A stretch of 64,000 bases of DNA, taken from the NCBI GenBank assembly GCA_022925895.1, contig JAKSYS010000220.1, positions 21,368-85,367 of the forward strand, given 5' to 3'. The notes under the pieces were generated by a model. That model saw nothing but the letters and a program-made list of their open reading frames with translations, made no database searches and was not told the DNA's origin. Below are positions 1 through 57,900 of the stretch, piece after piece. The translations under genes and the position numbers were made by a program. Origin of the DNA: Fragilaria crotonensis. Lineage: Eukaryota; Bacillariophyta; Fragilariophyceae; Fragilariales; Fragilariaceae. The number at the start of each line of letters is the position of its first letter. Position 1 is the stretch's first letter.

Positions 1-467
1 CGAATGAGTAAATGTCTCCAGGAATGCGGACCAAGTCGGCAACGATGTACCCAACGACGGCCAACATGGCAGTGCGGCCGTGGCGGAGTTCGGATTCGCG
101 GAAGAATGGAACGAACGGAGAGTAGGTTTCGGAAAGTTTCAACTGAAAGGCAGTGGAGGGGCGTTTGGGATGTTTGTGAGATAATAGATAAGGGTGAAGG
201 GAGATTTTGAGTGAAAGTCTGAGCCTTTCCTGAGTATCAGTCTGACAATAGAGGACAAGGCGCAAGCCATCGTCAACCAGCCATGCCCAACAGTGAAACG
301 CCAATACGTACTGGATCGAATTCGAATTTCTGTCCACGCAGATCCACACCACCGACGTAGTCATCAAAGACGGAGTTCAAGGCAACAGCAGCCTGGCTGG
401 ACTTGGCAGCAGGGGCGAAAGCACTTGCACCAGCGGCGCAGGCAAGAACGGCAACGGCAGTCTTCAT
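1..467 (-). CDS. Fucoxanthin-chlorophyll a/c binding protein (FCP), 3' end cut by window edge
   Basis: Light-harvesting antenna protein of the diatom thylakoid, binding fucoxanthin and chlorophylls a and c. Exon 1 is 467-312 and exon 2 is 142-1, running off the window; the 169-nt intron starts GTACGT and ends TTTCAG. The leader MKTAVAVLACAAGASAFAP has a hydrophobic core followed by the ASAF motif (cleavage before Phe17) that marks diatom plastid import. The mature start reads FEFDPLKLSETYS across the splice junction, then the first LHC helix with the conserved ExxxRHGRxAMLA motif (ESELRHGRTAMLAVVGY). The helix 2 and helix 3 regions are outside the window. It is head-to-head with a second FCP gene at 906. 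The LHC family assignment is firm; the FCP subclass cannot be decided from this fragment. Confidence 0.93.
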
Positions 468-905
468 TTTTGATGACGGTGATGAGTGATTGAGATGAGT
501 CTTGTAGTTCGAGTATAGGGGATAGGGGGACAATGATGAAGGTGCCGGCTGGTTTGTTGGTGACAAAATGTGAAGGCGTACAACCCTACGCACGGTCAGT
601 ACTAGAGGCCGAAATACAGTGCGTGCTTGAGGCGTATCCGGAATTCCCGATGCAGAGAAAGTTGAACTCGATAGATCGCGATCCTTGTTTTTGCGCCAGT
701 TGCCAGTATCAATCTGTCGTAGAGATCCTGAAATCATTCCACTGGTACTAAGGTTACACGCAGGGAATGTCCATGTCCTATGAATGCAAGCAGTCTACGA
801 ATACTTGGAGTACAGTACAATGTATGTAAGACCTCCTTCTTAGCATTCACCTCGTCAACCAAACTGATCCGTAAACGTAACATCAAAGTCAAGTCTCAGT
901 TCAAC
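468..905. promoter_or_regulatory. Shared intergenic promoter region of two divergent FCP genes
   Basis: The 438 bases between the two FCP start codons (467 on the minus strand, 906 on the plus strand) must hold both 5' UTRs and promoters. No gene is visible in it. A bidirectional promoter driving co-expression in light is inferred from the arrangement; no specific light-responsive element was identified by eye. Confidence 0.5.
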
Positions 906-27349: not shown

Positions 27350-29316
27350 TTATTGCAGGACTCCAGCCTGAAGTACCCTGAACTTTGCTGCAGTAAAGGA
27401 GCCGAACAATAAGTTTTGCTCCTCAACATTGCTTGCACTCGGCTCACAGAGCGACGTACAGTGCCTAAGCACCCTCCCGTCCCAACTTATTGCCACGCCA
27501 TGGGTAAGCTTCACAGCGAGTCCATGAAAGTTATTCCCGGCCTCGTCAACCCCAACCACATTGGGCATTACAAAATACCAATTTTAGCTGCACCCGGAAT
27601 CGTTTCGGTCCAAACGCTGAACCCAGGTGAGGCATCCCAAACATCAAAATGGGAAGCGTTCATGAGGTTGACACTCATGTCAATGGAGAAGCCCACACGA
27701 AGAAAGTGGCCATCGCCATCCATGGGTGGAACTGGGGGGATGCCTGAATTGGCCTCTAGCTCTTGGATCATCGTGAGAACGTCAGGAAACAATGCCTCCC
27801 CACAATCGAAAGACTCTGAACGAACTCTCGCAGAACTGGCTCGGGGACCAACAAATTGGTTGTGTACGCACTCATTCCCACCCCATCACGGTGAATGCGA
27901 GTCCCAATTGGATGCATCGCACCGAAGTCCCCCCTCGAATTCCTTGCCTTTCCATCCGGACGTTTATTCGCCACCATGGTGTTGTGCAAGTTAATCTTGT
28001 CCAATGCCCCACTCAGCGCGGCCTTGGTTGCACAATCAGGGGATGACAGGACGTTCCTGATCAGAATCAACGTCTTCCGGCTTTTCAGGCGGCACGAGTA
28101 TGCAAGCTCAACAATGAAGTCCACAACCGGGGTGACGGTTGGGTCCACAACACAGCATGTTGCCGGAATACGAAAGTGGTGACATCCCTTAGCATAATGC
28201 CCACCCCCATCGCGTGCGGCGTTGGATTCCGCGAGGCGTACGTTGAAAATATACGCCCGATCAGCAGGCGACCAATCGGAATGGTGGCCATCAAACACGT
28301 CGGGAGGCATTGCTGGACCATCAGCATCACTCAGCTGTCTCCCGGAACGGATCAGCCTCGTGGGCAGGAGCCGACACCCATGTTAAGGGACACCCTCCAT
28401 GCCGAAATGTTCCCGCCACTGGCATCATGCAAGCACCTCACATACCCTCCATCCCCAAATTTGCCATCCCTCATCAATCGTAACCAACTCATGTCGTGGG
28501 GATTAAGTGATTTCCGCTCCTGTCCGGCAGTTATGTCTTGGCGCCTCTCCCTAGCACAATAAAAATGCCCCACAGACGGGATGACGGCAATCACAGTTCG
28601 AAACTCCCCATCCGCCTTGGTGTCGAGACGATGCACATCGCGGCTCCGAACGGGGACCACGGCTCCACCCCTAACGGCGGAAGCAAGATCGACGGGCGTC
28701 AATGCTCGATTCAAGACGACATCCATCAGAATGAATTCTTGCTGAAACGAGCTTACAGAGCCGGATGGACGGAAGACATCGTCCTCACGAAGGGATTCCA
28801 ATTGCTGTATTTGGAAACGCGGATAGCCACCACCCATAATCCCAACACCTCTTGCAGCCCATCCGCAATCCACCGAATGGGAGTGTAGCAAATCGTGGGC
28901 TCGACATGTTTCGCACTTTCGGCTTCGTTTTTAACGCATGTCGAGAAGAACTCATCGAAACCCCCCCTCAAGTCCCCCGGCAAACACTTCAGAAGGACAT
29001 CCAGCACTTGTAACTGTGAGGGGACGCGTTTCCGAACGGACCGAATTTTCGGTTTCCTACCCTTCCGACCTCTCCGATGTTTTCCGGCATGATGATGCGA
29101 TTGCACAGGGTTAACAGCAGGGACAGGAACGCCAACATTTGCTGCCTGCCCGGAAGCCACAACCCTAGTAGGCGTGCACCCGAGATTAAGAATGGAGGAG
29201 CGACATGGATTCGTCAGCACCCTCGTGGCCAACACGTCGTTTGCGGCATTCCTCGGGAACAATCCCGCAACAACACCACTTACAACATGATCATCGACAG
29301 CGCTATCCGTCATCAC
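27350..29316 (-). pseudogene. Degraded copy of transposon-associated dioxygenase-like (HxD...H) protein
   Basis: Five minus-strand pieces in shifting frames (29316-28753, 28891-28352, 28310-27768, 27792-27568, 27568-27350) align in order with the intact 801-residue protein at 48991-51396. Shared blocks include CRSSILNLG, TPIRWI, MSWLRL, GHYAKGCHHFR, MHPIGTRI, FSIDMSVNLMNASHFDVWD, GFSVWTETIPG, and GVAISWDGRVLRHCTSL. The candidate metal ligands are kept: H-x-D near 27651 and distal His near 27463. The C-terminal extension of the intact copy is missing. Overlapping or abutting frames suggest only a few single-base shifts, so breakage may be partly technical. It lies inside MULE-1, between two repeat arrays. 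Confidence 0.75.
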
Positions 29317-30825: not shown

Positions 30826-33800
30826 ATGGAACCATCTCTGGAAGCCCATAGCTCTGCAAAGGTGACAAGGCATTTGCAAGATGCTTTGGATTCAGCATCA
30901 TTGCAAATGAATGATTGGACCACTGCTCTTCCTTTCAAAGTACGACAGCCAACCTGTAACGATGCAGAGAGTCTTTGTGTCAACATTCTCGATTACGTGA
31001 ACCCAATTTACCGCAACTATAAGCTTTACTTCAGTGCAAGGTACAATCATTCAGACTCTCCATCATTCAGTCATGGAGACAAAGGCTGGAAAGAGCTCTT
31101 GAATGACCTTGAGCGTGCAGGCATGGAAGAGGCTGGGTTAAACCTAATCAGCAATGGCGGCCACTGCGATACCCGTTGGATAGTTTGTGGTCAAGGATTC
31201 AAAAGATATCAGGGTACAAAACAGCATGAGCACAGTCCCAGTAAGCAGAACTATCGGTGCGAAACCCTCCATTCTGATCGCAAGAATTCTAGAGGTCAGG
31301 TTGGCATGAAGATGCCTCGGAAGACTCGGACAAAGCGAACACTTGATCTTACATGTCGATGCCCCTTTCGTTTTGTTGTAAAGGTGGACCATTTTGGATT
31401 CTATCTCCTTGGGGGTAGAGGCAATGCTAAGCATTGTTACCACCCAAAGTTGACTCGGGGTGAGTGTGCTGTCCCCACGCGTCTGATTTGTCCTGAGGAG
31501 AAGGATGTCATGGTTTCCATTGGTACTGCCAAAGCAAATGATGGCGTTGGCAGAAATGTTCATTTCAGTCGAAGTGGTAATGTCATTCCTCGAAGTCAAG
31601 TGCGCTACATAAATGGTTTTCAAAACGCAGCAAACAATCCTGAACATGATAATGTACGTCGATTGGAACCTGGTGTGAGTTCAGTGGACAAGCTTCTTAA
31701 GTCTTTCAGGAAAAGAAATTTGACCATTGCGTTTTGTTCCATCACGTCAGCCAAAGAAGTCAATGTCATGACGAAGGTGATGTGCACAGAAGAATTGCTG
31801 GTTCGTTGGTGGTTCCGAGAGGTGTTGATGACGTGGTGCTCAATGAGCATCATGTTGTCACTGGTAATGATGGAATTTGTCCGACATTTACATCATCTCC
31901 TCCACTGCAAGTGCTCACATTTCCTGACACTGAGGTCGGTGACATGCAGTTGTTTGCCAAACAACACAGGTTGTCTCTTTTAGTGGACGACAAACAGGAT
32001 TTAATGATGGGGTGTGCATGGACGACACCACCTGAACAGCGATTGTTCAGAATGTTCAGTGACGTTCTGCACATTGATTGTACTGCAGATACAAATATTG
32101 AATCTCGCCCATTTCTATCTGTAACTGGTCGTGACTCAAATGGTCACATGTTCTCTGTCATTCGTGCTTTTCTCCCCAATGAAAGGGCATGGGTATTCCG
32201 CTGGATATTCCAAACTGTGATGCCTGCATTGTTGGGCAAGGATTACATCGGCAGAGTGAACGTCATAATCACTGATGGTGACGCATGTGAAACATCACAG
32301 TTGGATATAGCCATTACAAAACATTTCCCAAATGTCTGTCGTGTGCGATGTGGGTGGCATATTGTTGACCGTGGTTGGAGAAAACATTGTCCTGGTACCC
32401 GATCGGTGTCCTTGCCAAATCAAGCTGCATTTGCCTCAATTTCCAATCAGATAAAAGCCTGGATTTACAGCTGGATGTCTCCACGTTGTGAAACTGAGGA
32501 AGAGTACAAGATTTCGAAGTCGCTTCTATGTGCTTACCTGCGCCACTCTGATTTCCTTCGTGTTGCCAGTGAGGCTGTTGCTGATCAAATTGGGACTTTT
32601 ATCCGTGAACATATTGAGCCACATGAGGCTTTTTATTGTTTTCATAAGCGACGCCATGTTCGTCACTTTGACACCTACACAAACTCGGCACATGAGGGGA
32701 CAAACAATGGCGTGAAGTCAGCAGCTGCACCCATTCTACCTCAGCATTCTTTGGATCGATCTGCTTCAATCCTGAACCAAAATGCTCTGATAAAGGCAAA
32801 TGCTAATTCTATCCAGTCCGCAAAGGTTATTTCGACAAATGCCCTCTGGTCAAAACTTCCAACTGCACAAAAGTTGACACATAAGGGTGAGGGTCTCATC
32901 ACTGCACAATGGAAGATGCGAAACAATTATGTTTCTCAAAGGGTTGGAGATACATCCTGGCACGTCGCTTTGAAGTATAGGGAGAATCGGGATCCGCCTG
33001 GCCTTATACCCAATTTCTCCAGGGTGAGAAAGGTCTCCATCACGGATGACCGAATTCTTTTGTGCTCATGCCTGCATTTTGAGCGGGTTGGTATTCCGTG
33101 TCGTCACCAAATGCATATACTGGTGTCGCTTCATGAAGGCTATGCGGGTATCACTCACCACGATGTTTCTGTTACTTGGTGGAATGAGTTTGCCAGGTAT
33201 GCGTTCTCCTCTGACCACGAGTGCAAAGTTATTTCTTCCCTCTACCAGAAGTTGCTTTTCAATGACATATGTGGACCTTCCATTCCAAACGACATTGACC
33301 TTCCACCCCTTGTACAGCAAGTTGTTGATCCCTCCCTTGTCGTCAAACCTGCCAGAGAAACATGTCAAAACTATGACGTTCAAACCATTAACTCTTCAAT
33401 GAAGAGCTTGCATTTTTGTGGGTCCAAACAGGGATCAACATCTGACGATGATCCCCTCCTGATGTCGTACGTTGATGACGACAATGAGAGTCTCAACTTT
33501 GGTCCTTGCAACACGCAACAAGAAACCAATAAATACAGTACTGATGATTGTGTGTTAGTCTTCCCTGCAGTTGACGCCAACTCCCATGATGAGACGATGA
33601 ACAAGAATTCTCCATATAACGTTCTCTTCCCCCTTCTGAAGGAGCTTACATCCATCCTAGAAGGAAACTGTTCTGTTGATAGCTTATCACATTACAAGGA
33701 CATGCTATCAAATGCAATTGCAAACGAAAAGAGGAAGTTATTAGAGAGGTCAAAAGGGTCGTCATCTGGACAACCAAGTGGGAAAATGGTCTCATCTGGT

Positions 33801-33848
33801 GTCCAGTCTAACAAAAGACACCGAAGTCATGGTACACGGCACATGTAG
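30826..33848 (+). CDS. MULE (Mutator-like) transposase with SWIM zinc finger, copy 2 (one frameshift)
   Basis: Start MEPSLEAHSSAK at 30826. One missing base near 31735 separates the N-terminal part from the catalytic part; corrected, the protein is about 1007 residues. The zinc-binding segment is CPFRFVVKVDHFGFYLLGG..KHCYHPK. The catalytic triad is Asp in HIDCTADTN (32076), Asp in VIITDGD (32274) and Glu in NSAHEGTNNG (32694). The conserved RCGWHIVDRGW block follows the second Asp. SWIM is LLCSCLHFERVGIPCRHQMHIL. The whole frame from 31734 to the stop is open, so this copy is much better preserved than copy 1 and could be the active source of the family. It starts about 285 bases inside the left TIR; the promoter must lie between. 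Confidence 0.9.
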
Positions 33849-34729: not shown

Positions 34730-36160
34730 GTCAGCGCAGCGTCGCAACTGGTGTCGGTTCGACGGTTCCTCGTCGCGAGCGCAAACTCCTCCACCGAACC
34801 AAAATTGCGAGCGCAACCACCACTCCTGATGTATGACAGGTAGTGGCTATCGCAGCGTCGCAACTGGTGTCGGTTCGGCGGTTCCTCGTCGCGAGCGCAA
34901 ACTGCTCCACCGCACCAAAAATGCAAGCGCAACCACCACTCCTGATGTATGACAGGTAGTGGCTATCGCAGCGTTGCAACTGGTGTCGGTTCGGCGGTTC
35001 CTCGTCGCGAGCGCAAACTCCTCCACCGCGCCAAAAATGCAAGCGCAACCACCACTCCTGATGTATGACAGGTAGTGGCTATCGCAGCGTTGCAACTGGT
35101 GTCGGTTCGGCGGTTCCTCGTCGCGAGCGCAAACTCCTCCACCGAACCAAAAATGCAAGCGCAACCACCACTCCTGATGTATGACAGGTAGTGGCTATCG
35201 CAGCGTCGCAACTGGTGTCGGTTCGGCAGTAACTCGTTGCGAGCGCAAACTCCACCACCGAACCAAAATTGCGAGCGCAACCACCACTCCTGATGTATGA
35301 CAGGTAGTGGCTATCGCAGCGTCACAACTGGTGTCGGTTCGGCGGTTCCTCGTTGCGAGCGCAAACTGCTCCACCGCACCAAAAATGCAAGCGCAACCAC
35401 CACTCCTGATGTATGACAGGTAGTGGCTATCGCAGCGTTGCAACTGGTGTCGGTTCGGCGGTTCCTCGTCGCGAGCGCAAACTCCTCCACCGAACCAAAA
35501 ATGCAAGCGCAACCACCACTCCTGATGTATGACAGGTAGTGGCTATCGCAGCGTCGCAACTGGTGTCGGTTCGGCAGTAACTCGTTGCGAGCGCAAACTC
35601 CACCACCGAACCAAAATTGCGAGCGCAACCACCACTCCTGATGTATGACAGGTAGTGGCTATCGCAGCGTCACAACTGGTGTCGGTTCGGCGGTTCCTCG
35701 TTGCGAGCGCAAACTGCTCCACCGCACCAAAAATGCAAGCGCAACCACCACTCCTGATGTATGACAGGTAGTGGCTATCGCAGCGTCGCAACTGGTGTCG
35801 GTTCGGCAGTAACTCGTTGCGAGCGCAAACTCCACCACCGAACCAAAATTGCGAGCGCAACCACCACTCCTGATGTATGACAGGTAGTGGCTATCGCAGC
35901 GTCACAACTGGTGTCGGTTCGGCGGTAACTCGTTGCGAGCGCAAACTCCACCACCGAACCAAAATTGCGAGCAACCACCACTCCTGATGTATGACAGGTA
36001 GTGGCTATCGCAGCGTCACAACTGGTGTCGGTTCGGCGGTTCCTCGTTGCGAGCGCAAACTGCTCCACCGCACCAAAAATGCAAGCGCAACCACCACTCC
36101 TGATGTATGACAGGTAGTGGCTATCGCAGCGTCGCAACTGGTGTCGGTTCGGCGGTTCGT
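34730..36160. repeat. 116-bp satellite array, about 12 copies, inside MULE-2
   Basis: Unit markers are CGCAACTGGTGTCGGTTCGG, GCGAGCGCAAACTCC and CACTCCTGATGTATGACAGG. The period is 116 bases throughout. At least two unit variants (CGGTTCCTCGTCGCG and CAGTAACTCGTTGCG) alternate, and blocks repeat at 232 and 348 bases, indicating higher-order duplication. Because 116 is not a multiple of three, the minus strand cycles through all three frames and is still open in stretches of 105 codons. Confidence 0.95.
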
Positions 36161-41800: not shown

Positions 41801-43080
41801 ACGCTACCACTCATTTTCACCGCCCTACTACCACCACTGCTTGCGGTCACACCATCTCCAAGCGAGAGCTTCCGCACCACTGCTGTTGCCCGCGACTCCG
41901 ACTGTGGCCCCTATGGCCGATACCCCCTGTCACGGATGGTGTTTCCACTTCTCCCACCCTGTTGCCGCCAGCCGCTGTCGCTGTTGCTGTCCCTGCCATC
42001 ATCACCACGTTTACCACCCTCACCGACAACAGCCGTCGACGCCGCCAAGCTGCCGGTCGCTCGTGATACAACGCCCAAGCCCGCCCTGAACGTCCTTGTC
42101 CTGCTACACAGCACACACCGTGCAACGTGACGTGGCGTCATGCCGTGTGCCCACTCAGCCTCCCAGCTTGCAAGAGCAGCCCATGCCCACTTTGTGGCCC
42201 TCTGCGTACCTTTGCCAACTACCACACCACCGAGTTTCTTCCACAGGATCCGAGTCCTCTGTGAGCTTCGCTGTGCCGAACAACGCCCCTCAATTCCGCA
42301 CATACCGTTCTCGACCTTGTATCTGGCGCCGCCTTATGGTATCTCCGGGAAGATTTCATGGGCCCGGAATGGCTACAAGTGCAGCCAACAAAATCGGTAG
42401 ACTGCTGGCAGAAGGAGTCCTACCGCATATGTCCCACAGCACCGACACAATCCACTTCATCCGTCGTCATGGTAGGCTGCCTCCCAGTCGCAAGGCAACT
42501 TATCTCCGCATCGTTGCGGAGCCCTGCCCACTCAAGGCGGAGACAAAATGCATCCCCTTCACCGCCGGCGGCAGCAATATTGATACCCGGTACTATGAGC
42601 ACCCCACTGCAGATTTAACAACTGTTAAACTACTGCTCAAGAGCAGCGTACTGTCCACCCTCAATGCATGCTGCTTTGCTTTGGGCGACCTGGCATATTT
42701 TCACGTCAACAATCCGATGAACAGGTGCAAACACACGCAAATTCCTGTCCGCGATATTCCCCATCCATTATCACCCAGTATAATCCCCTTCCTCTTGTAC
42801 ACACAGAGACCGGGTCCTCGTAGAGATACAGACAGCACGTACCCTACTACTGCAGGCTGGCATTATTGCCAACACACGCCTGGTGAAACACCTGGCCACG
42901 CACGGCTATATCGGTCGCCCATACTGCTGGGTTCTTGACCCATGTGATGCACCTTGTCATGTTCTGCTGTCAGAATGTCAAAGACTTTGGCATCAACAAG
43001 TATGTTGACAATGCCAATGCTGATCACTTGTTTCATGCCCTGCATGCACTCTTCACTATCATGCTGGGGAATTGTGTATA
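38830..43080 (+). mobile_element. Decayed Ty1/copia-type retrotransposon (diatom CoDi-like), gag-pol remnant
   Basis: Recognisable pieces follow the copia order in many frames. Gag is at 38.88-39.6 kb (ICQIMLAATPASIYLNA, LQMLPHLHKQYGKIT, LPTPIDRLL, GYNIMIAATGLFTEACRD). The Gag C-terminus with HTSVTC and NQMG is near 39.75 kb. A protease-like remnant (NAISPQPYVRGQLCD) is near 40.3 kb. Integrase C-terminal sequence is at 41.16-41.6 kb (RAIRTFNNHFIAGL, LAQLHGAFDF, TPLAPAGTRVMIHEKSGF, TWAPHAVDGWY). A Pro-rich linker covers 41.6-42.1 kb. Reverse transcriptase remnants are at 42.4-43.08 kb (RKATYLRIVAEPCP, TADLTTVKLLLKS, VKDFGINKYVDNANADHL). Stops and frameshifts are everywhere, so it is long dead. 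RNase H and both LTRs were not found. Confidence 0.8.
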
Positions 43081-46053
43081 GTAGTATAGTAGTTGGCTAA
43101 AATCTCAAGAAGCAGAGGCATCGCGTTGGGTGAGGCTATGGGTTCAAGTTTATTCATGAACCTACGGTATGATGCTATCCACTAAACAAGGGTGGTATTG
43201 TGCCGTGTGAGTTGAGTCTCGAGTCCTCCAAATCATGAGCACAGCGGCAGCACGTAAATAAGATTTGGGATTTATCTTCACCATCAGCTGGACTGAACCG
43301 GCACTAAACACTGCGGTCTCACTCTCGCGTGGGAAATTAAATCATGGAATATTATGGCCTGCTACTTAAGGGCGGTCTTTCTCAATATTGAAGTTATCGG
43401 CCTTCTGAATTTGTCATGGACAAGCAACCTGGAAAGAGTCATGTTCGTTGTGATAAAATTGAGCAAAAAAAACACCTGTCGGCCAATTGTGGATATGGAA
43501 TGAGCTTTGAGCAAGTCAATTGTAAGGTGGTGACATGATTGCACATTTCATTCTCATGATCGACATGCATGAGTGTCTCTTTGCACTGATGTGATTACTG
43601 ATGCTAATTGGAGAACACTTTTTGTGTGTCAACAAGTTGGAGCAGCCAGATGAACTCACCAAGCAAGGGAATTTTATACACTGGGCATGTGCTTCCAACA
43701 AACAGTCTGAATGATCGATTTTGTGTGTCCATTGTGGCCACATATAAACTTCAGAGTCCGGAATTTGTGCTTCAATGACAGACTGTTGCTTGCAGTCGAT
43801 GAGCTGTCTTCTGCAAAGGGACAATCTACTCATGAGCGATGCCCGCATTTGGTGAGAGTAGTAGAGCAATAATCCTGCCTGCTAGAATCAACACTCCTCT
43901 TTGCTCGGGGCGCCAACCAAAGATTGCGATCCGCTCATCCTGCTGGCTGTTCCTTGACACCCCAGTCTGAAATGGTGGTCCTGAACCGCTCCTGCTTTGA
44001 TCCGGTTGAGATTGATCTTCACATTCCTAACTATGTAATGCCGGGTCTCCTCATCTTAACTACACGACTTACACGAACAGTATGACCATACCCTCCAAGT
44101 AGGATATTGGGTCCAATCACAAATTCAACAACATGTTCCCAGCTAGCTATGCATTCCTGCTCCAGTGGGTGCCTCTTAATTATTCCACTCATTCTGTGTC
44201 AACCAGCTATGCATTCCTGCTCCGGTGGGTGCCTCTTGATTATGTCACTCATCTTGTGTAAATCATCAGTCCATCCCATTCAGCCTCCATGCTTTTTCAT
44301 TTGGGAGAAAAATTTTGCTTGCGCCGCCATTTATTCTCACCTCTTGATTCATCTCAATGCGCTCAACACATCTCATCAGGGCATTTTGACCAGAATGGCA
44401 TAAGGACGACGAGGATGAACAACTGGCAGTGTTCGTTGTCTCTTTCGCAGCAGTCCCTTCTGGTCATGTCACTCAGATCTCCTGTTTGGATATCCTAGAA
44501 TGGGGAATCAAGAAACTGCACAAATCAACACCTTGGTGCATTCCTTTGGGCTGGAACGATATCCATAGAAAGGCACTCATCACCGATTCTGTCAAAGTCG
44601 ATGGTCTGATGACATACCTCGACATCACTATCACAAACGAGAGATCAGCCAGTCAACCATTGGAGCAACAAGGTGGTGTATGTTTGGATTGAAAAGGATC
44701 AGGTTTGTCCCAACATAAATTGGCTCCAATTTATCTACCTGTTCTAAGTCACAGAGTACAATCTTTCTCAGGATCCAGTGGTCATTCAACTTTGAATCTC
44801 TCCATCCAGGGCAGCATGGATTGGTTCCCTTGGACAACCATGGACCCAATCATGCTCACACAAACTCGTCACCGACCTGTGTCGGATCCTGAAACAACAA
44901 AACCTAGCAAGAATCAAAAATGATGCCAGTGCATTCTATGGTTGCATCATTATCAACTTTGGCATGCTGGCAGCTTATTGATGTGTGACGATGCAACTGA
45001 ATGTTATCCAGCAACCCCTCCCAGATAGACTTCAGCCAGTCCATGTATCAATGCATTGTCAAGATAATTCACTTCAGCATTTCTTCCAATAAAAACAGCT
45101 GCTCTCCATTGCACTACCGCCATTTCTTGAAACCAGCCAGCCTAGGCAGTGGTGTCTGCCCGGCAGTGTGATTGTCCCTTGTTGTTGTTGCTTTGTGAAA
45201 CTGATGAATACACTTGGCCACCTTGCTGATAGTGAAAACTCAAGAGTTATGTCCTGTGATGAAAAACCTCACTCTTACCTCATGACTCCTCATTTGTCAA
45301 TGATACCTCGTGGACCCACTGACAAACCTCAGCCAAACCTTCATGATCACTTGCATCAACCAGTATAGTGTCCAAGCATAGGAGTATTGATTCTTTAGTG
45401 AACATCTCAAGCTCCTGGTTCGTGGCGTTGTCAGATTAGTGCAGTACACCGCACATGCCCTTAGCGTAGAAGCGATACAGTATACTTTATTACTAGTATC
45501 AGTACTACAATACAATGGCCATGTATAGTACTTGGATAGACCGGTGGACTAGTAATACCATAGTACAGTGCAACAGTAGAGCACTGATCCTGTACAGCAG
45601 TACAACCGTACACATTAGGTGAGTAACCAGTAGAAATGAGAACTGGCTGGTTCATCAGGGAGGCCAAATCTCTGGTTTGTACTTCACCCGGTGGGTTTTA
45701 ATCACATATTCCATCAATTTCTACTTATTTCTGAGAAATGTTTGCTTTATTGTAAATATATATGAACAACAAAACACATTTCTCCTATTTATTGGCAATG
45801 TATGATTTTCAGATATTTGTAGCTTTGTTGTAGATATTGTTTTACAATAATAACTCTTTGTGCATTATTCAATGGTAATTTATCTTGAATTCCCTGTAAT
45901 GGGTCACCACTGGGCCAATGTTCACTCATGCTCAAGTTCCAACGATGCCCGCGCAATTTTCTTCACGCGCCAGACTCAGGATTATGTTGCTTATGTCTTG
46001 CGCCAAAATTTGTTCCCTCAAAGCTGCACCATCAGGCATTGTTGACAATTGTC
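43081..46053. other. Gene-free region with a 60-bp direct duplication
   Basis: No gene was recognised. AT-richer old repeat-like DNA covers most of it. A 60-base segment beginning AGCTATGCATTCCTGCTCC is duplicated in tandem at 44145 and 44205 with a few changes. 45430-45610 is another GTAC-rich block. The last 300 bases, AT-rich, precede the transposase start and may include its promoter and the unlocated left end of that element. Confidence 0.45.
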
Positions 46054-48913
46054 ATGTTTGATTGCTTTAACATCAATTGCTATGCTAGGTTTAAATCTGA
46101 ACGCGGACTGCGTATGCACCTTTGGCGGAGTTCATCCTGTAAGGATTACATGGAAAGGCAGCAGTCAGGAACTCGGGCAAGCGTGGATGGTTGCCCCGAA
46201 ATTGTTTCGACAGTGCGACGTCCCTGTTATGGTGTAGAATCAACCCGCCTGAATCCAGGAATGGACACAAATCCTCCCACGCACATGCCATTCGAAGAAT
46301 TTGACTATGGAACAACTGGCTATGACGACGGCAATGATGATGATGATGACAATGAAAATGACAAGAATGAAATGTGTTTTAACGCCCAGCAGTTAGATCA
46401 ACTTCCAATAACAACGACACTCTTTCCTGGAATTGACAATACTGCATCTCCTGCAGTTGTCCATGCGTTGATGGAACGCATTCGTGCAAATGAGAGGCAT
46501 GCAGTGATGGTTTTGCAACATGATGTTGAACATCGATGCATTGTTGAACTTTTGAAGATTCTGGAGGACGCCCAGTGTCCTGACTACATGCTGCACAAAG
46601 TTTTAATGTGGGCTTACAATGCAAAGTCTAGCGGCTTTGACTTCAAGCCAAAAGCTATGTCCAGGAAAGCGAACATCCGATGGATGTATCAGGCTTTGCA
46701 ACATTCACACCACCATCTCCCCCAGGTGATCTCCATTGCCCTTGAAGATCGTGACAAACCTCAAGAGATTGCTTGCTTTGACTTTGCTCCCATCCTTTTG
46801 TCGTTGCTACAGGATGAAGACTTGATGGCACCAGAAAATCTTGTGCTTAACCACGAGGATCCCACGTCAATGTACCTCCCACGCAACAACAAAATTGGTG
46901 AGGCACACACTGGAAGCCGCTACCGTGAGCTCTATCATGAACTTATCACTCGAAAGAATCAGCTACTTGTCCCTATCATCCTCTATATTGATGGGACTGC
47001 CATTGACAGCAAGGGGCATGTTGAAGTGTGTCCTGTGTCCTTCACGACATCTCTCTTCACTGAGAAGCTCAGGAGAAAGAGCACATCCTGGCGAGTACTA
47101 GGCTATGTTCCCGACTTGAATCGCGGACGATCATCCGCAATGAACTCTCAAGCCAATAACGCACAGTCCAAAGGACGCACCACACGTAATTTTCATGCAG
47201 TGATGGACGTAATTTTGAATGGCATGTCAAAGGCACAAGCTGGAAATGATTGTCGTTTGAGGAATGTTCCTTTGAAACTTGGCGGTCAGTGGGTGGTTGT
47301 TGATATTGTTTGTCCACTGCTTTTTGTGATTAATGATGGTAAGCAAGGCGATCAACTTTGCTGCCGTACAAACAGTCACCATAGAAGTACACCTCGTCAC
47401 CATCGGTCCTGTGATTGTGTTTTTGACGATCTTGACAATCCAAATGTTGAGTGTTCTTTTCTTCGCATGGATTATGTCAATGATGCATGTCGCAATGGGA
47501 AAGACGATTTTCTTCAGCAGCTCTCAATGTACAGGGTTGACAATGCCTTCAACCGTGTCCAGATGGGACGTAATCCTCATGGCATCTTCATGTGTGCCGT
47601 CATCGATGTCATGCATACTGTGCAGCATGGTGTCATCATGTATGTACTTGAGTCATTCAAGACTTTTCTTGGCGCCGAGATCTTGGCAATCCTTGATGAC
47701 ATGGCACTTAAATTTGATGTCACATGCCTCCAAACTATTCGTCAAGATTTTCCTCGAACTGATTTCGCACGCGGCATCACCAACCTAACACTTATTGAGT
47801 GCTCGGAACAATCAGGTACTTTGTTCCTTTTCGCTGCACTGACTATGCAGGCTGAGGTATGGCATGCCATCTCAAGGTACATCCCCGATCTTCCGGCAGT
47901 CCTGGGTACAATGGAATGCCTTCTGTGCTTCGAGGCATGGCTGGATGCTGATACCTATTGGGACGCTATAGGAGGAGATAAAGTTGGGGAGGCAGCCTTG
48001 GCAGAAAATGCAATTACACGGCTCATGTCTCTTATTCTGAAGTACCTCCCACGAGATGCTGGTAATGGCTGGAAGGTGTCAAAATTCCACGAATTGAAAC
48101 ACATCGTCCGTTTCATTTCTACGTTTGGAGCACCTCGTGGTTACAATGCCTCACGACCCGAGGAACATCACAAGGCCCATGCAAAGCGCCCTGCTCGTCG
48201 TTCACAAAAGTGCATTCAGACGATAGACCAGCAGTGCGCACGGAGAATTGCCGACACATTAGTCATAGACACAATGCACGCCGTGTTTGCAGAAGAATTC
48301 CGTGAAAAACGCTCCCCTCAACACATCACGTCCACAAGCAACAAAAGAAGTAGGTCGTGGCACTCGCTATCACATCCGATGCTTCCGTGATCCCAATCAG
48401 AACAATCGTTTGGTTCGTGAAGTTGTTTTCATAACGGAAACAAGGGAACGCATCGACCTCGAACCAAATCTTGCACTTTTCATAGTGCAATCGTACAGTG
48501 AAACTGACTTGGATGAGAATGGGGAGGGTACGATAGAGTGTAGCACTGAATACACAAAGTACGAAGTTGATTCAGAAGAGAAGTGCATTTCCATTCGAGC
48601 CCATCCAAATTTTCGAGGTGATGGATATCCCTGGTATGATTGGGCATTGATTCGGTTTGAAGACGATCAAGGAAACTTGGATGACTTCCCATGTCGTATT
48701 GTCAGTTGTATTCACCGACGTGGACATCCCCAGGAGGATAAGTCATTCGACCTCGTGGTCCAATCTTGCAATCAGCCCACTGGTCGCGAGTCCATATTGT
48801 TCACTGAGTGGACCTTTGACCGAAAATTCTACGTTGTTTCCAGCACTGCACTTGTTTCTTTGTGTTATGTACTTGTCGATGGTTGCGAGCTTACGGACAC
48901 AGTTTTGTCGTGA
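46054..48913 (+). CDS. Plavaka/CACTA-like transposase (large DDE family) with N-terminal zinc finger
   Basis: The start at 46054 (MFDCFNINCYARFKSERGLRMHLWRSSSC) encodes a C2H2-like finger typical of the family's N-terminus; the frame is open further upstream but that part looks non-coding. An acidic linker follows, then the conserved core: LVPIILYIDGTAIDSKGHVEVCPVSF with SWRVLGYVPDL, the cysteine-rich HHRSCDCVFDDL, and the MCAVIDVMHTVQHGVIMYVLESF segment, then KFHELKHIVRFISTFGAPRGYNASRPEEHHKAHAK. The C-terminal part (in another frame from about 48340, one extra base) carries GYPWYDWALIRFEDDQ, the usual terminal region. Corrected length is about 952 residues. IDGT and the VIDVMH Asp are candidate catalytic positions. 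It converges on the dioxygenase-like gene 78 bases away. TIRs were not found. Confidence 0.78.
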
Positions 48914-48990
48914 AGGATAAGGAGGAGTGGGCATCTCTGTTTTACAAATCTGTGTGGTGATCCGCATTCTTCAACTATAGTATGTATCAA

Positions 48991-51396
48991 TTAGTACCTC
49001 AACCTCTTCCTTCTTGGTACCGTGTAGTTGCCCTGCATCAGCATGGCTGCCGTTATAGATTCAGTTGGTGTCCCTTGTGAACGGTCTCCCGACAACATCA
49101 CCCGAGGATGAAGGTCTTCATTGAGACTGACATGTCCCTCTCCATCAAAGTTATCCATCGCCACGGAGTCAGAATATTCATCATCAATATCGCGAGAGAA
49201 TAGGGATGAGTCGTCATCAGCAGTCACCGCTTCATCAGGTTGGTGTACCTTATCCCAACCCTTCTTCTGCGCGTAAAAACACAACCAGTGTTCCTCCGAG
49301 CCATCTTTGGGCGGTGGATGCCCGTCAGGGTCCGCATCCTCAATTTTGGGGACGTAAGGTGGAAGCACTTTATCCCACCAAGGAACAAGGTCATCGTCAT
49401 CATTGCTGTTGTCATCACCGTTAACTCCAGCGGCTCCAACAACATCCACGCCCACGTGCGGTGCAATGATTTCGTCACCGGATGCTGTGACAGGACATCC
49501 AGCAGCCGCAGCCGCAGCTGCCCTGCATCGTCCTGCATTTACAATCCGCTCTTTAGCGGCGGAGAATGTACCATACACATGGTTCAGTGTGGGATGGTCG
49601 CCACCCCCATATGGCTTGCCAGTTCCGTCAGGACAAGTCAGTGACGTACAGTGACGTATGACTCGGCCATCCCAACTGATGGCTGTTCCATGGTATAGCT
49701 TGACAGCAACGCCATTGAATGGCGCACCGTTATTGTTCCCGAATAGATTTGGCATCACAAAAAACCAGTTTGCCGCCTTGCCAGGGACTTCTTCAGTCCA
49801 AACTGAGAAGCCCTGTGAGGAGTCACCCACATCGAAGTGGGAGGCGTTTCCAAGGTCCACGGACATGTCAATGGAATACGCCACACGATCTTCACTTCCC
49901 TTGTCAGCCATTGGTGTTACAGGGTGGAGACCGGTGTCGCCTTCAGCATCTTGCATCACGGCAAGAACTTCCGGAAAGCAGTTCGCACCAATCTTAGCCA
50001 ACGACTCAACAAACTTCCGCAACATTCGCTGGGGAACTTTCGAGTTTGCAGCGTACTCTGCCGTTGTCACTCCGTCAAGAAGGATGCGAGTCCCAATCGG
50101 ATGCATGTTTCCAAGATCACCGCGACTGGCCCTAGCCGAGCCGACAGGAACACGCGTCCTCAACAAAGAGTTGTGTAACGTGATGAAACGCAAGTCCTCA
50201 ACCATGAGTGGTCGCCCTGCTTCACCCTTACACAATGGATCCAGAGTTGGCGATAAGATCTGGCGAACCATGATGATCGACTTCCGAGATGTGCAATTGC
50301 CAATTGGTGCAATATCCACAACAATGTCAACCACAGCATTATCAGCCCCATCAATCACAAGACAATCGCTGGGCAGGCGGAAGTGATGGCAGCCAGGAGC
50401 ATAGTGTCTCCCCCCAATTCTGACAGAGTTTGACCTCGCCAAGCGGTCATTGAAAGCTTGCCCACGATCAGCTGGATGCCACGCACCAATATCAATGCCA
50501 CCGATGACATCAGGTGGCATTCGAGGACCGTCAGCATCGGAGCACTGACTTGCCCAATACACCTGGCGACTCAATTTTTCGTGATGATAACTCCGGGATA
50601 TTTTCCAAGCGGATACAAATCCACCATCTGCAGAGGCATCGGAGGCAAGTTTTCTCACGTATCCACCCAGACCGAAGGCCAATCGGTCCATTCCAGTATC
50701 TGATGATTCACTTGTTGCCCGAGAGAGTCGAAGCCAGCTCATGTCCAGCTGTACAAACGAATTCTGCAAACCCGTCTCAGCCTTGCGTCGCTCGCGGTGG
50801 CTATACAAGGTGCCAGCACCGGGAAGGAAAGCAAGCACCGCACAGTACTCGTAATCCTTCCCATCCTCGTCATCGCTGTCAGTGTAGACGCACGCATTAG
50901 CGACAGCGTCAGGATCTCGTTCGGCCAGAGGAGCCACACCCTCTCCCAGTTGTGGTCGCGCGCGATGAAGAATAACATCTAGCAAGAAGAATTCCGAAAC
51001 ATGGTCATGTACACCAGGTCTACAGTAGAGTTCATCAAGGGAACGAAGTTGTGTGACATGATACTGTTTTTCTCTTAAAGAATCCTGAATCCACCGCAGT
51101 GGAGTCCCACAAATACATAGATCATCAGGCATCTTTGGACGTGAATCCATCGCAGCCTTGAAGCCACGACGAACACTCCCGAAAACCAAGGGAACACACT
51201 TCAACAGAAGCGACAGAACCTTTGGATGGCCAGGGTAGTAGTTCCTACGGCCACGCGAACGTGGCATTCGTTGTGCACCACCTGCAGCTTTTCCAGGGTT
51301 TACACGCGGGTTGTCCCCAAGATTCAGAACGCTCGAACGACAGATCGATGTCCGACCACGTGTAGCCAAATGGTCGTTGTCATCATTGCGAATCAT
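48991..51396 (-). CDS. Transposon-associated putative 2-oxoglutarate/Fe(II) dioxygenase-like protein, intact 801-residue copy
   Basis: One uninterrupted frame of 801 residues. The N-terminal half has conserved but unrecognised blocks (CRSSVLNLG, CGTPLRWI, MSWLRLSR, GRHYAPGCHHFRLP, GNMHPIGTRIL). Residues 507-585 read as strands of a jelly roll: SIDMSVDLGNASHFDVGD (H520-x-D522), GFSVW, WFFVMPNLFG, GVAVKLYHG, and AISWDGRVIRHCTSL (distal H582). H-x-D followed about 60 residues later by a strand-end His is the Fe(II) triad layout of 2OG oxygenases, including TET/JBP and AlkB types. An acidic, low-complexity C-terminus follows. A diverged second copy at 27350-29316 keeps the same residues. The fold call is inference by motif only; no database comparison was possible. 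The gene is convergent with a Plavaka/CACTA-like transposase. Confidence 0.6.
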   Translation of the reverse strand: MIRNDDNDHLATRGRTSICRSSVLNLGDNPRVNPGKAAGGAQRMPRSRGRRNYYPGHPKVLSLLLKCVPLVFGSVRRGFKAAMDSRPKMPDDLCICGTPLRWIQDSLREKQYHVTQLRSLDELYCRPGVHDHVSEFFLLDVILHRARPQLGEGVAPLAERDPDAVANACVYTDSDDEDGKDYEYCAVLAFLPGAGTLYSHRERRKAETGLQNSFVQLDMSWLRLSRATSESSDTGMDRLAFGLGGYVRKLASDASADGGFVSAWKISRSYHHEKLSRQVYWASQCSDADGPRMPPDVIGGIDIGAWHPADRGQAFNDRLARSNSVRIGGRHYAPGCHHFRLPSDCLVIDGADNAVVDIVVDIAPIGNCTSRKSIIMVRQILSPTLDPLCKGEAGRPLMVEDLRFITLHNSLLRTRVPVGSARASRGDLGNMHPIGTRILLDGVTTAEYAANSKVPQRMLRKFVESLAKIGANCFPEVLAVMQDAEGDTGLHPVTPMADKGSEDRVAYSIDMSVDLGNASHFDVGDSSQGFSVWTEEVPGKAANWFFVMPNLFGNNNGAPFNGVAVKLYHGTAISWDGRVIRHCTSLTCPDGTGKPYGGGDHPTLNHVYGTFSAAKERIVNAGRCRAAAAAAAGCPVTASGDEIIAPHVGVDVVGAAGVNGDDNSNDDDDLVPWWDKVLPPYVPKIEDADPDGHPPPKDGSEEHWLCFYAQKKGWDKVHQPDEAVTADDDSSLFSRDIDDEYSDSVAMDNFDGEGHVSLNEDLHPRVMLSGDRSQGTPTESITAAMLMQGNYTVPRRKRLRY

Positions 51397-51402
51397 GGAA
51401 GT

Positions 51403-52245
51403 TGAGCGAAGGCGACGTCAAGCTGCGTCGTCTGTTGAATGGCAGCTTCAGCGACAGGACAATATCAGTCCTCCCAAACAACGTTGATTGCGGCTCGCTA
51501 GATGATGACGTCAAGTCGCGTCGTCTGCTATATGGCAGTTTCGGCAACAAGACGCTTCCAACAAAGTCAACAGCGATTGCAGGGCAGGCCAGATGACGTC
51601 AAGCCGTGTCGTCTGCTATATGGCAGCTTCGGCGACAGGACGCTCCCAGTCCTCCCAACAACGTTGATAGCGCTCGCAAGATGACGTCAAGTTGCGTCGT
51701 CTGCTATATGGCAGTTTCGGCAACAAGAGCGACTCCCAACGAGACGCTCGCAATCAGTCGCTGTCGTCGCAGTTGTTGTTGTCCCAGTCGTTCGTCGGAA
51801 GATATTCCGAACTTAATGCACTCAACGCCGTCGTCACAGTCGTTTGGCAGGATTCCGAACTCAGCCAAGCAACGCAGGCTCACGTCGAAGGTGCGTCGTC
51901 TGCTATATGGCAGCTTTGGCAACACAACGCTCGCAATCTGACGCACGCTGTCGGAAGATATTCCGAACTCAACGCACTCAACGCCCTCGTCACAGTCGTT
52001 TGGCAGGTAAGTGCAACTCAACGCCGTCGTCGTTCGTCACAGTCGTTTGGCAGTGATTCCGAATTCCGAACTCAAGCAACGCAGGCTCACGTCGAAGGTG
52101 CGTCGTCTGCTATATGGCAGCTTCGGCAACACAACTTAATGCACTCAACGCCGTCGTCACAGTCGTTTGGCAAGCAACGCGGGCTCACGTCGAAGGTGCG
52201 TCGTCTGCTATATGGCAGCTTCGGCAACACAACGCTCGCAATCTG
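51403..52245. repeat. Complex tandem array upstream of the dioxygenase-like gene
   Basis: The word GTCGTCTGCTATATGGCAG recurs about seven times (near 51425 in variant form, then 51519, 51606, 51695, 51891, 52101 and 52198), usually followed by CTTCGGCAACA. A second word, GTCACAGTCGTTTGGCA, recurs four times from 51835 to 52170 interspersed with it. Spacing is irregular (about 90-200 bases), so this is a composite of two interleaved repeat types. It starts seven bases beyond the ATG of the minus-strand 801-codon gene. Confidence 0.88.
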
Positions 52246-53329
52246 ACGCTGTTGACAATGAAAAGACTTCCACAACAGCAATGTTGGTGTGAACAATTGG
52301 TGTGGTGTGAACAATGTTGGTGGTAACATGAACAAATTGCTTTCGATACGTAGCAAATGTACTAGAAAATTGATAGAGATTTCTAATTTAATGCGTAGCT
52401 AGTGTACTGGACGAAACGTAGAGACTCCAACAGCATGAAGTGGGACTTCGAACACAGTATACAAAAAAAACTAGAAGCTTCCTAGGAATTGATAAGAAAC
52501 TTTGGTTACAAGATCGATACATAGGATATATTAATCGCATACGAATTTTCGATTGCGAATGCGGAGAGTTTAACTCCCAGAAGACATGTGTCACACAAGT
52601 AAAGAAATTGCTATTTACACGAAATGATTTCTATTTATTTTTTAGTTTAGAAATGTGAGGACTTCAAGTCCCATTTCCGCGGTAAGCAAAACTATGGCAG
52701 GGATGCACATGTATGAATCTTGAATACACTTCATAGTGTGCTGATTAAATCCATATATGTTATATTCGTCTATAACTATCACAAGTAATATGTCCGAGGC
52801 AGTACAACAGCTTGTCATATAAACATGTGTGACCGTCAACAAACAATGTACAGATGTGCACAGTAGTACACAGTACCCCAAAGATAGCATGCAGTATTAC
52901 TATAGCTACTGTTACTTATTACAATAGTACAGTACGGTATTTCTACCACAGCATTGCAGTGTAGTTCTACCGTCATATGCACTTCATTACTTTGGTACGG
53001 TTATTACAGCGTCATTACATATGGATAAGTAGATATTTAAATGGATGTACTTATTGAGCAATGCATGTGCCCTTCGCTCGAAAGACTTGAAAATATTTCT
53101 TTTGAATAATTTAGTTCATAAAGAAATACATACATAAAACACAGATTTCGAGGGCGTTGATTTTTTACAAGACCAGCACACAAAGCACCATCCCGCAAGA
53201 TGCAGCACAATCATATTTTACAATAGTTCTCAACAACAAGAGATCTTGTTGATGACAGTTGGCTACACCACACCTGACGAGCCTGCCATATAGCTTGCTC
53301 TGATTGGTGTGTACCTGCAGTCAACCAAG
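52246..53329. other. AT-rich spacer
   Basis: No gene recognised. 52840-52990 is another block of TACTG/GTAC words. The unlocated right end of the Plavaka/CACTA-like module should fall between 52245 and about 52650. Confidence 0.4.
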
Positions 53330-54986
53330 ATGTCGTCGAGCGCGGGAAAAAGAGGCACCAGCAATCAAGGTGGTGGCAGTCGTGATCATGGACATGGAAA
53401 AGGTGCTGGGCCTCCAAACGCAGCGCCAGTTACAGTTAGGGGGCAATCTTCAAACTGGCAAGGAAAAGGATCACCATCGCCTTCTGGCAATTCGCAAATG
53501 ATACGACGGAGTCAAGCTGCAACGTTGTCGCCCAGCAGAACCCGCAGTCAACAAGATGCAGCAACATTGTCACCCATGATCATGACCCGAAGTCAAACTG
53601 CAGCATTGTCACCCATGATCATGACCCGCAGTCAAGCTACAACAGCTGGTCGACATGCTGGTTTCACGAATCCAGGAAGTGGAGTTGGAGGAATGTCTGG
53701 TAGATCACAACAGGAACGACAACAAGAGCGACGACAACAAGAGCAACGATATCTACAACGACTTCAAGAACGATTTCAAGAACAACAACAGCGACAGCAA
53801 GTTCAACAACAAACACCACCAGCAGCAACAACAATAGGAAGGCAAGACGATATTGCACGCGATTTAGGAATTCACACATGTGAATTGGTGCAAGAAGCGT
53901 CACGACGGGAGGATAGCAGCCGCACTGCATTGACGAAAACGGTAAGGAGAAGATTGGAAATGGGTGATCATGATGGACTGACAAGAACTAAGCTTAGAAA
54001 AGTAAGCCAAGAGTTCATGCACGACAAGGTGGTCAAAGAGCTCTTATTTCAAGCAAAGTTTGCAACTCTGGCTGAACTTGACTTCAGCAACAGTCCACAC
54101 TCAATTTGTAGGTTCATGGCGAGCAAGCTCCAGATAGAAGGCGAGGATGAAGTGAAGACTTGGTGGGATGGAGTCAAGAAACATGTTAATGATGCATTGA
54201 AAAGGCATAGAAATAATGTCATCAAAACCATCAAACAACTTTTTAGAGGTGAGGAGCGTGCATATTGCTCAGGATGGTGGTAACTGTGATTGACTTTCTG
54301 TACTGACAACTGTTATTTCACAGATAAAATACTGGGGCGAGATGGATATGCTGTCACGTTTGAACTTAATCAGATTGCTGGAATGAGGAGTCCAGCATCT
54401 AAAGAAAGATACATTGACTTCCTTGACTGCCTTGTCAAGGCTGTTGTCAGGTACAGCAAGTACATGGAGAATCGCACAAGGCAGCCTCTGAGTCAGTGGT
54501 TCACACTGACGGACGAGGCCTTCCTGATGGTGTGCATCGAATCGTACATGACAAAGTGGAGGCATGATTGGATGGTACAGAGAATGGGACCTCCAGCCAC
54601 ATTGCCACCTCGCGATAGTTCTCCACAATTATATGAGGCAAGATACACTGGAAAACTTACGGAACGAAAGAAGTTGGTCGAAGGAAGGGTTAGAGCGTTT
54701 CAACGCATTAATGATTGACGTGTTTCGCAACCGTCAAGAACATGGAGCAGCATTTGACGCTGACTTCTTGGAGGAAATGAAGTTCAGGTATGCTTCTGGA
54801 ATTGACGCTGCAAGTGGACAATCTGGAGAAGAAGCTGAGGTAATTCCTGTGGCGACTGTTCAGCCAACAATTGTCTACAATGATTTCAATATGGAATTGT
54901 TATTAGCACACGCAAACATCACTGGAGGTGCAGGGATGAATGGAGAGCAGCAACCTGACGATGGAGTTCGAGGAGTATCAGTTTGA
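53330..54986 (+). CDS. Spliced gene of unknown function, possibly transposon-associated
   Basis: Exon 1 is 53330-54248 and exon 2 is 54324-54986, with donor GTGAGG, acceptor TTTCACAG and a 75-nt intron; the junction reads IKQLFRDKILGRDGYAVTF. One extra base near 54680 must be removed to continue as SWSKEGLERFNALMIDVFRNRQEHGAAFDADFLEEMKFRYA. The N-terminal third is low complexity, with four to five repeats containing SPMIMTRSQ(A/T) and a long Gln/Arg/Glu coiled-coil-like stretch (about residues 125-170). The central part is helix-rich (WWDGVKKHVNDALKRHRNNVIKTIK). The W..EG..RFN....V..NR......FD..FL pattern near the end is, from memory, frequent in diatom proteins linked to DNA transposons, but no catalytic domain is visible. 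Neighbours are transposon genes. Confidence 0.6.
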
Positions 54987-57900
54987 TAACAATGGTGCTT
55001 GTTAGTGTGCTGGCAACAACACACAGTAGTAGTACAGTACTGTGCCAGCTTAACACTAGAAATATTTGCGGGAAAGTTTGGAATGTCACACTAGAAATAT
55101 TTGCGGGAAAGTTTGGAATGTCAAGCCAAATGGTGGGAAAGCCTTTGTACAGAATTATGTATAAAACTTTAAGATACTTCTGCAGTAATTTCACTTTTTG
55201 TACATAAATATCTAGAAATTTTCTAAGTAATAGCCAACGATAAAGGTGAAAGATATTCAAATATTTATTTATAAAATGTCAAAAATAATTATTCAGACTC
55301 CAGAGATTTGGCCCCCTGATGTTGACAACTCCTGGAGACTCACTGAGTCTCCTCTAGGTAATCTAAGATGATCAGTTCAGTCCCACCAGGGATGGGACTG
55401 ATCTCTCTTTGTTGTTAGTCTCATAACTTTAATAAGTCTACAACTATTACCCCCTTTAAACTAGCTACAAATAAGTCTACAAAAAATAAAACTGATTACT
55501 TCGCGCGTAGGGCAATTGGACATCTGGTAACCCGGCTCTTTGTCCTCACTCGCTCACTCACTCACTCTCTTACTCACTCATCAGTCCAAATGATCTACGT
55601 GTAAAAAACAGCCTCAACTGATAAAACACCATCCCTGTCACACACAATACTAGACAACGCCTCACAAGCTTGAGGGGTCAACCTATCAAGTTCAGAGGGA
55701 GTGATATATTCGCTCATGAAACTAATACAATGCAGTTCATTGTTTCTCACTTGCCTTGCATCACCTTGACTCTGAACACCCTTGGTCTGCGCACTGGTTG
55801 TCAACAAGGGGAGCCTTTTGGGTCCTAATGAAACCGTTCCAACAAGCATCATGTCTGTAGACCTCAAAAATCATGTTGACAGCACTTTACATCCTCCGGG
55901 ATCACCCCTGCAACTGAGTGGTACCCCCATTCGAGTCTTCTCCTGACTTCCACAATGGCAATACAGGCATCTACCAATCACAACTGAAGAGGAGCCAATC
56001 TCGTATAGGCACATGATTTCCTCAAGGCAATCCCCCGCTTTATCGAATACTACCTTCTTGTGTTTCACTGTGAGCAAAGTGCTTGCCAATGATCTAGTAT
56101 AAGTCTGTTGTCAAGCATTTCACTCCAAAAGTTAACTCCTAAGAATTGTTACTGACTGGAGTTCAGAGTCGCAATCCTGTGGAAGCTTTGAGCATGGATT
56201 GATCACACGACAGGATGTACCTTTATGCCTAGGCGATCATACTTGCACCAACTTGGTGATGGATTAACTGCTCCCTCGTTGTTTAAAATGGATTGGATTG
56301 GTGCTAAGTTTATTGGCTGAATTCCTGCAACTCATCAGTTGTGAGAATGTGAATTCAAACCTATGGGAAAGTGATCTGGTGGCTGAACAAATCAGCTCAT
56401 ATCCCACATCTTTCACTCACTCCAAGAACATTGTGAATGCACCAAGGCCACGAACCTCCTAGTGAGATCTTGCAACAGTGTCCCATAAGTGGTTAACCTG
56501 AATTTGTTCCAAATTTTTTATTGCTGAAAATGGCTGTTGCATCCTTCTTGTCGGCATTGTGGCATAATGAATTGATGACAGTCAGGGTGCTATTACTACA
56601 GGACAGCTGGTCACTCACTGAGGAACCAAATTGTGGTGCTGCCAATTCAACTAGTATGTGGATTAAATTGCAGTTCCCTTTGAGCTACAAGTACTAGCCA
56701 ATATATGGAAATGACTTGTTGGGTCAAGCATCACCAAGTCCAGACCGTATTGCTCTCCAAACTTTCCATCAATACAATGTTGATGTTGATGCACATGCAT
56801 CACCTCCGTCATAACTGGGCAAGTACCAAGCCAGTCTAACACATCTCACTTCTTCACATCCTCCTAATAGTCCCGATGACAGCCGGTAGAATTTACCTAG
56901 CATTGGTGAACATTTATGACTATCTCCATTTCCACATCGATGGATCTAAACTCCTCCGTGTTTATTCTACGCAAGAGCACCAATTCCAATGGAAGGATTG
57001 CATTTGGGACACTGTTAACCACATGCATTTTTGGAAGCACTTTCCTTCATTGAACAGCCACATGAACAATTCACACACATGAAGTTTGTGCACAACTAAC
57101 AACTTGTCACCGACATCAACTCATGGTCAAGTCCCCTGTATGCAATGGTCCCCAACATTTTTGCACGGCGCTACATTGGACATTTCGCCAATTGTCTCCT
57201 CTGATTTGAAACAGGACACCATAGTATACTGCTGATCTCTGTGGTTTCCCCTCTCACATGCATAATCAGTACAAGCCCTGATCCTCTAGAGGCTGTGAAT
57301 TGTCCATCAAAGGTTTTCTCAGCTCAATGTGGAACTTGCATGCATCTCTCCACATTTATGGTTTGTTACTGTCATAGTTTCACCATGACATTCGTGAACC
57401 ATTTTTGTGATGTGTTGTCTTTTCTTGATGTTTTGTATTGTGCTCTGCTGTGCGCTTTCCAGTTGATAAGTGTGTTCATTATTTTTCATTTTGATTCTTT
57501 TGTTGAATGTAGCTACTGTCTCAAGGTCAAAATGGTTGCACAACCTCGAATATCTGGAGCAAGCGTAGTTGCCCTTTGTTGTGTCCCCTGGCGATACACT
57601 TAATGGACGGCATTGAGTGTTTTCATTAACACTATGGGGTGCACTCCTCCATAGTGCTGTTCATACTATCCTTTTTCAAATGACATCAACATCAAGCTGG
57701 GCAAGAAAGACAAGATGTCGTACTCTCATTCTTGATCTTGGTGTTGTTTAGGTTCACAAGCAAGGCCAGTTATTGGATTCAACAGGACCACATCTGACTT
57801 AAGACTTGTGGGCTCTGGAGCTACAGGTCTGTTGTGGTTCATTTCTACAAAACAATATTGTGCCAAGCATGCCTTGATTGCTAGTTTGAATAATACCAGC

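Follow-up and report, generated by a model that had tools for sequence, protein, structure and literature searches.

A predicted TET/JBP-like DNA oxygenase encoded by Plavaka- and MULE-type transposons of the diatom Fragilaria crotonensis

A 64,000-nucleotide stretch of the genome of the freshwater diatom Fragilaria crotonensis (contig JAKSYS010000220.1, positions 21,368 to 85,367; hereafter the window) contains a Plavaka-type DNA transposon of 9,669 bp, and this element encodes an 801-residue protein whose predicted fold and conserved residues point to a TET/JBP-like oxygenase. TET enzymes oxidise methylated cytosine in DNA, and the TET-like shape predicted for the protein suggests that the element carries its own anti-silencing tool. 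The protein is most likely a transposon-encoded TET/JBP-like enzyme that oxidises 5-methylcytosine (5mC) against silencing, fold and residue conservation both standing at the level of prediction and gene content being read from the sequence; a probability of roughly 0.7 is assigned to a captured, highly diverged, Fe(II)-dependent DNA oxygenase of this type that acts against silencing of diatom DNA transposons.

The gene (48991..51396, minus strand) is an unbroken open reading frame (ORF) of 801 codons from ATG to stop, and the plus-strand reading of the same interval holds 17 stops. The closest database protein, F. crotonensis MHU86_2151 (776 aa), is 97% identical, 24 more proteins match at E ≤ 1e-3 and a search with the core alignment matched 137 proteins (120 of these listed), so the ORF is more than a chance opening. 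Compared over 731 codons with the oxygenase gene on contig C131, the proportions of synonymous and nonsynonymous differences (pS 0.80, which is saturated, and pN 0.385) fit purifying selection. A previous sequence-only reading had described an intact, transposon-linked protein here without naming a strand; the ORF does lie inside an element bounded by terminal inverted repeats (TIRs), and the H520, D522 and H582 positions and the GFSVW, WFFVMPN, GVAVKLYHG and AISWDGRVI segments singled out in that reading are all present in the translation. The protein and its relatives also share a short basic C-terminus (e.g. VPRRKRLRY, IPRKKQRS), seen in at least 10 of 26 aligned relatives, which may be a nuclear localisation signal.

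Fold comparison of two predicted models, the check that the sequence-only reading had proposed for its 2-oxoglutarate (2OG)/Fe(II) oxygenase core, returned double-stranded beta-helix (DSBH) oxygenases, the TET branch ranking first. The best structural matches are human TET2, NgTET1 and CcTET, with CMD1 also among the top folds, and the predicted DSBH lies nearest to solved TET structures; the VIA-align ranking is a re-ranking of Foldseek's own matches, and, taken by itself, Foldseek gave no significant match for the first model (lowest E 0.012). The best TET2 match spans residues 124-635 (49492..51027, minus strand), and in the domain model it spans 80..590, equivalent to residues 124-634 of the full protein. 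Structural Z is at least 13.4 for the TET group and at most 10.5 for the next families, ALKBH3 and FTO. Identity to TET2, NgTET1 and CcTET in the structural alignment is 7-10%.

Residue conservation was counted in a core profile alignment that placed 147 of 154 family proteins, including the query and 13 profile-building sequences, many of the relatives being fragments. The HxD...H Fe(II) triad of TET/JBP dioxygenases is present in the family: the presumed ligands H520-x-D522 (49831..49839, minus strand) are kept in 134 of 137 and 126 of 136 relatives respectively, and the presumed third ligand, H582 (49651..49653, minus strand), in 120 of 124. Further near-invariant residues are W575 (124/127), D576 (122/125) and K615 (108/112). 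Spacing around both motifs is the same as in TET2 (HxD-x6-G and HG-x11-H, positions that we take to be the Fe sites of TET2), a likeness spotted post hoc with no chance estimate. Three residues after the HxD aspartate stands D525 (49822..49824, minus strand), with D in 123 and N in 10 of the 137 relatives (D or N in 133), and N in the TET2 sequence. In CMD1 (PMC7854593), Fe binding requires H345 and D347, and binding of the 5mC base depends critically on D350 among others; D525 therefore stands at the spacing of a 5mC-reading residue and is a candidate for that role. The predicted DSBH fold and the near-invariant presumed ligands together support the oxygenase core of the sequence-only reading.

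The element itself (45653..55321) was delimited by where alignments of other copies stop, on the left at 45648-45653 (seven rows) and on the right at 55322-55325 (four rows). Its ends are inverted repeats with CATCA..TGATG termini, as in PlavakaB: the left TIR (45653..45675, plus strand) reads CATCAGGGAGGCCAAATCTCTGG and is preceded by TT, and the right TIR (55300..55321, minus strand) reads CCAGAGATTTGGCCCCCTGATG on the plus strand and is followed by TT, consistent with a 2-bp target duplication. The 2-bp flanks agree at all four loci where both ends were read (window TT, C3 TT, C103 TG and C764 AT, the last sitting in a microsatellite). To the left of the oxygenase gene in window coordinates lies a Plavaka-related transposase of 820 aa (45928..48390, plus strand). 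Its Plavaka identity is indirect, since the protein itself has no Pfam match and is placed through relatives of 35-36% identity on C131, C5, C147, C728 and C620, which are PF18759 Plavaka matches, and through motifs seen by eye: CLLC, and HELKH preceding PEEHH. The CLLC and HELKH motifs agree with C(2)C and H(3-4)H, which a fungal survey (Kojima 2025, PMC12730594) gives for this clade of transposases.

Genome-wide, 119 merged oxygenase loci were found in F. crotonensis, a count that includes the second window copy and broken copies, may include haplotype duplicates, and leaves out overlapping fragments of entered loci and the rows of one further match table already covered by the other two. 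In the first set of loci, a Plavaka-related match lay within 8 kb at 25 of 49, on the 3' side in 25/25 and on the opposite strand in 24/25. Among loci sharing 65% identity or more with the C131 member (matches below this were dropped, so that the list marks a MULE-type clade), a MULE transposase lay within 8 kb at 17 of 24, every time on the 5' side and opposite strand and in 16 of the 17 at 2.5-3.7 kb; the other seven had neither Plavaka nor MULE within that distance. The second window copy is likewise accompanied by a MULE in this arrangement. The other 94 loci had Plavaka within 8 kb at 45 (42 of these 3' and opposite strand), MULE at four (none 5' and opposite) and neither at 47. Over all 119 loci, 46 had a Plavaka and 22 a MULE nearby, against 3.8 and 3.0 predicted by even scattering, a weak null because transposons cluster and copies share descent; five Plavaka loci were entered twice in the neighbour table, which leaves out fragment rows of the search with the transposase, and the merge fused two loci at C873. 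On C87, inverted ends of roughly 0.5 kb, each flanked externally by TAGATTAA, enclose a MULE together with a C48 (Ulp1-type) peptidase and an oxygenase frame that stays open for 808 codons. From these neighbour patterns and the C87 element, the oxygenase gene family is judged to be carried by two transposon superfamilies, Plavaka and MULE.

Copies of the element also differ at CpG sites. Excess CG to TG/CA change over the like change at GpC controls was seen in C3 (p 0.0013), C764 (p 0.0057), C84 (p 1.4e-10), C103 (p 0.032) and C261 (p 0.0052), the p values being uncorrected for eight tests and the window's own changes recurring across several comparisons; CpG methylation would be expected to leave such an excess. 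A correlation of DNMT5a loss with globally depleted methylation and with overexpression of young transposable elements is reported for Phaeodactylum (PMC9998398), and in F. crotonensis 48 of 48 differentially expressed mobilome genes were higher at high pH (PMC9732472). We infer metal binding, a 5mC substrate, a co-substrate and an anti-silencing role for the oxygenase as follows. The element would make transposase, oxygenase and a third protein, and the host would methylate CpG within it; the oxygenase would then bind DNA and flip 5mC into the DSBH pocket, where D525 would read the flipped base and Fe(II) held by H520, D522 and H582 would serve oxidation of the methyl group. The methyl mark would thereby be lost or ignored, and the element would remain expressed and mobile.

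Several results weigh against this reading. The TM-scores that Foldseek gives are modest (0.27-0.30 by query, 0.21-0.41 by target), with rmsd (root-mean-square deviation) values of 7.2-14.9, and neither NgTET1 nor CcTET was seen among the 50 Foldseek matches listed. H520 and D522 sit in a loop with predicted local distance difference test (pLDDT) scores below 50 in both models, with values this low at residues 516-520 and 522-526. Pfam matched PF12851 (Tet_JBP) to none of 26 family members, and a PF12851 search of the F. crotonensis genome gave no match, the control genomes giving none either. The profile-profile search that the sequence-only reading had also proposed was not significant: when the core was compared by hhalign with two segments of TET2, taken separately and then together, the Fe motifs stayed unaligned and the score was no better than that of shuffles, of which 63/150, 20/150 and 37/150 reached it. 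The protein is called TET/JBP-like and is not placed in PF12851, because the family claim rests on predicted structure and conserved residues. On the side of the host, no significant CpG-transition excess was found in C76 (p 1), C317 (p 0.7) or C188 (p 0.054), C103 would fail correction for eight tests, and the 13 PF00145 matches in the assembly possibly include bacterial contigs. Finally, no conserved arginine was found among relatives at 605-606, beside the residue on which ungapped end offsets place TET2 R1896.

The last point bears on what the enzyme might do. If no gap is assumed, end offsets put TET2 R1896 and CMD1 R410 at residue 607, beside N605 (N in 86/105) and H606 (H in 86/112), and NgTET1 R289 at 599-600, in a low-confidence loop, so the placement is uncertain. 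CMD1-like chemistry, acting on 5mC without 2OG and adding a larger modification that hides the base rather than erasing methylation, would accord with these residues and with the rank of CMD1 among the top folds, and CMD1 is described as an enzyme without a working basic residue for the 2OG C5-carboxylate (PMC7854593). It is unlikely nonetheless: by the same report CMD1 retains the aligned Arg410, its side chain pointing away, so that CMD1 and the diatom family differ here; K615 or another residue may anchor 2OG; and the results hold no sign of ascorbate use by the diatom protein. A broader reading, possible but doubtful, is that diatom transposons of the unrelated Plavaka and MULE superfamilies share a TET-fold DNA oxygenase family, unseen by the profiles tried and lacking the canonical 2OG arginine, which may use another co-substrate or make a cytosine modification not yet known, so that transposons would write a diatom epigenetic base mark.

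Departures from 5mC altogether fare worse. An AlkB/FTO-like N-demethylase whose substrates, in DNA or RNA, are N6-methyladenine or alkylated bases would account for ALKBH3 and FTO being the next families in the structural rankings, and CcTET, a top match, also acts on N6-methyladenine in DNA; it is improbable given the drop in Z outside the TET group and the extent of the alignments, which begin only at residues 342-346 for ALKBH3 and FTO, whereas TET matches begin between 67 and 192. That the DSBH protein is catalytically dead and works with the transposase in a DNA-binding or structural role would explain why the residue comparison found no 2OG anchor and is compatible with the metal-site loop being modelled without confidence, but each of the three presumed Fe ligands is retained by 93-98% of the relatives covering it, many of these being fragments, which makes such a loss very improbable.

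Transposon-borne TET/JBP genes have been mapped in fungi, and the diatom element resembles the fungal TET+ PlavakaB as described in the survey (PMC12730594): both pair a Plavaka transposase with a TET/JBP-type gene, with CATCA..TGATG ends and the 2-3 bp duplications of cut-and-paste transposition, and in both settings the gene is spread over more than one lineage of transposons. The differences are that the host here is a diatom, no TET_JBP profile match is found, the diatom protein has HxD where the PE type carried by fungal Plavaka has HxE, and the second carrier, MULE, lies outside the 11 lineages named in the survey. The algal TET homologue CMD1 shares a top-ranking fold and the Asp three after the HxD aspartate; its co-substrate is vitamin C (PMC7854593), and it has an arginine, as does TET2, where N605/H606 stand here. 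TET2, NgTET1 and CcTET share the HxD...H motif, but the 2OG arginines of TET2 (R1261/R1896) and NgTET1 (R224/R289) are not recognised in the diatom protein. A literature search, with most subscription journals outside its coverage, found no TET-like gene reported from a diatom or from a MULE. The data would extend a transposon-borne TET/JBP strategy from fungi to a stramenopile alga, on the basis of 119 merged loci (relics included) in one genome, and would suggest that acquiring cytosine-oxidising enzymes by capture is a response to methylation-based silencing that has arisen repeatedly. The oxygenase furthermore offers a concrete enzyme for seeking oxidised or hypermodified cytosine in diatoms.

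Among the remaining features of the element, a third ORF of 324 aa (53309..54283, plus strand) has no significant Pfam family; its N-terminal half is repetitive, and its C-terminal part (residues ~215-317) has diverged relatives of 38-51% identity, several on contigs with the other two genes. Direct repeats at offsets of about 88-98 bp lie just upstream of the oxygenase gene (51504..52249), the 88-bp unit containing GATGACGTCA. Contig C76 is about 99% identical to window 40350-60000, well past the element ends; the other haplotype, or else a segmental duplicate, is the probable explanation, and genome tallies may therefore count a single insertion twice. As routes to identity, PDB sequence searches (one giving none, the other three weak matches at E 0.14-1 with no named oxygenase) and an IMG/VR contig search led nowhere.

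The diverged copy that the sequence-only reading had noticed at 27350-29316 is real: tblastn with the oxygenase gave five blocks at 27362..29253, in three minus-strand frames and 36-57% identical, so the copy is broken, although it retains NASHFDV, GFSVWTE and AISWDGRVLRHCTS. Divergent from it stands a MULE transposase (31734..33848, plus strand). Ulp1/C48 peptidase and MULE-type transposase ORFs around this copy (25594-26709, minus; 31734-33848, plus; 23183-24847, plus) recall the MULE-type elements at C131 and C87, and large tandem arrays lie at 34735-36158 (116 bp x 12.3), 33994-34397 (43 bp x 9.4) and 29335-30044 (100 bp x 7.1).
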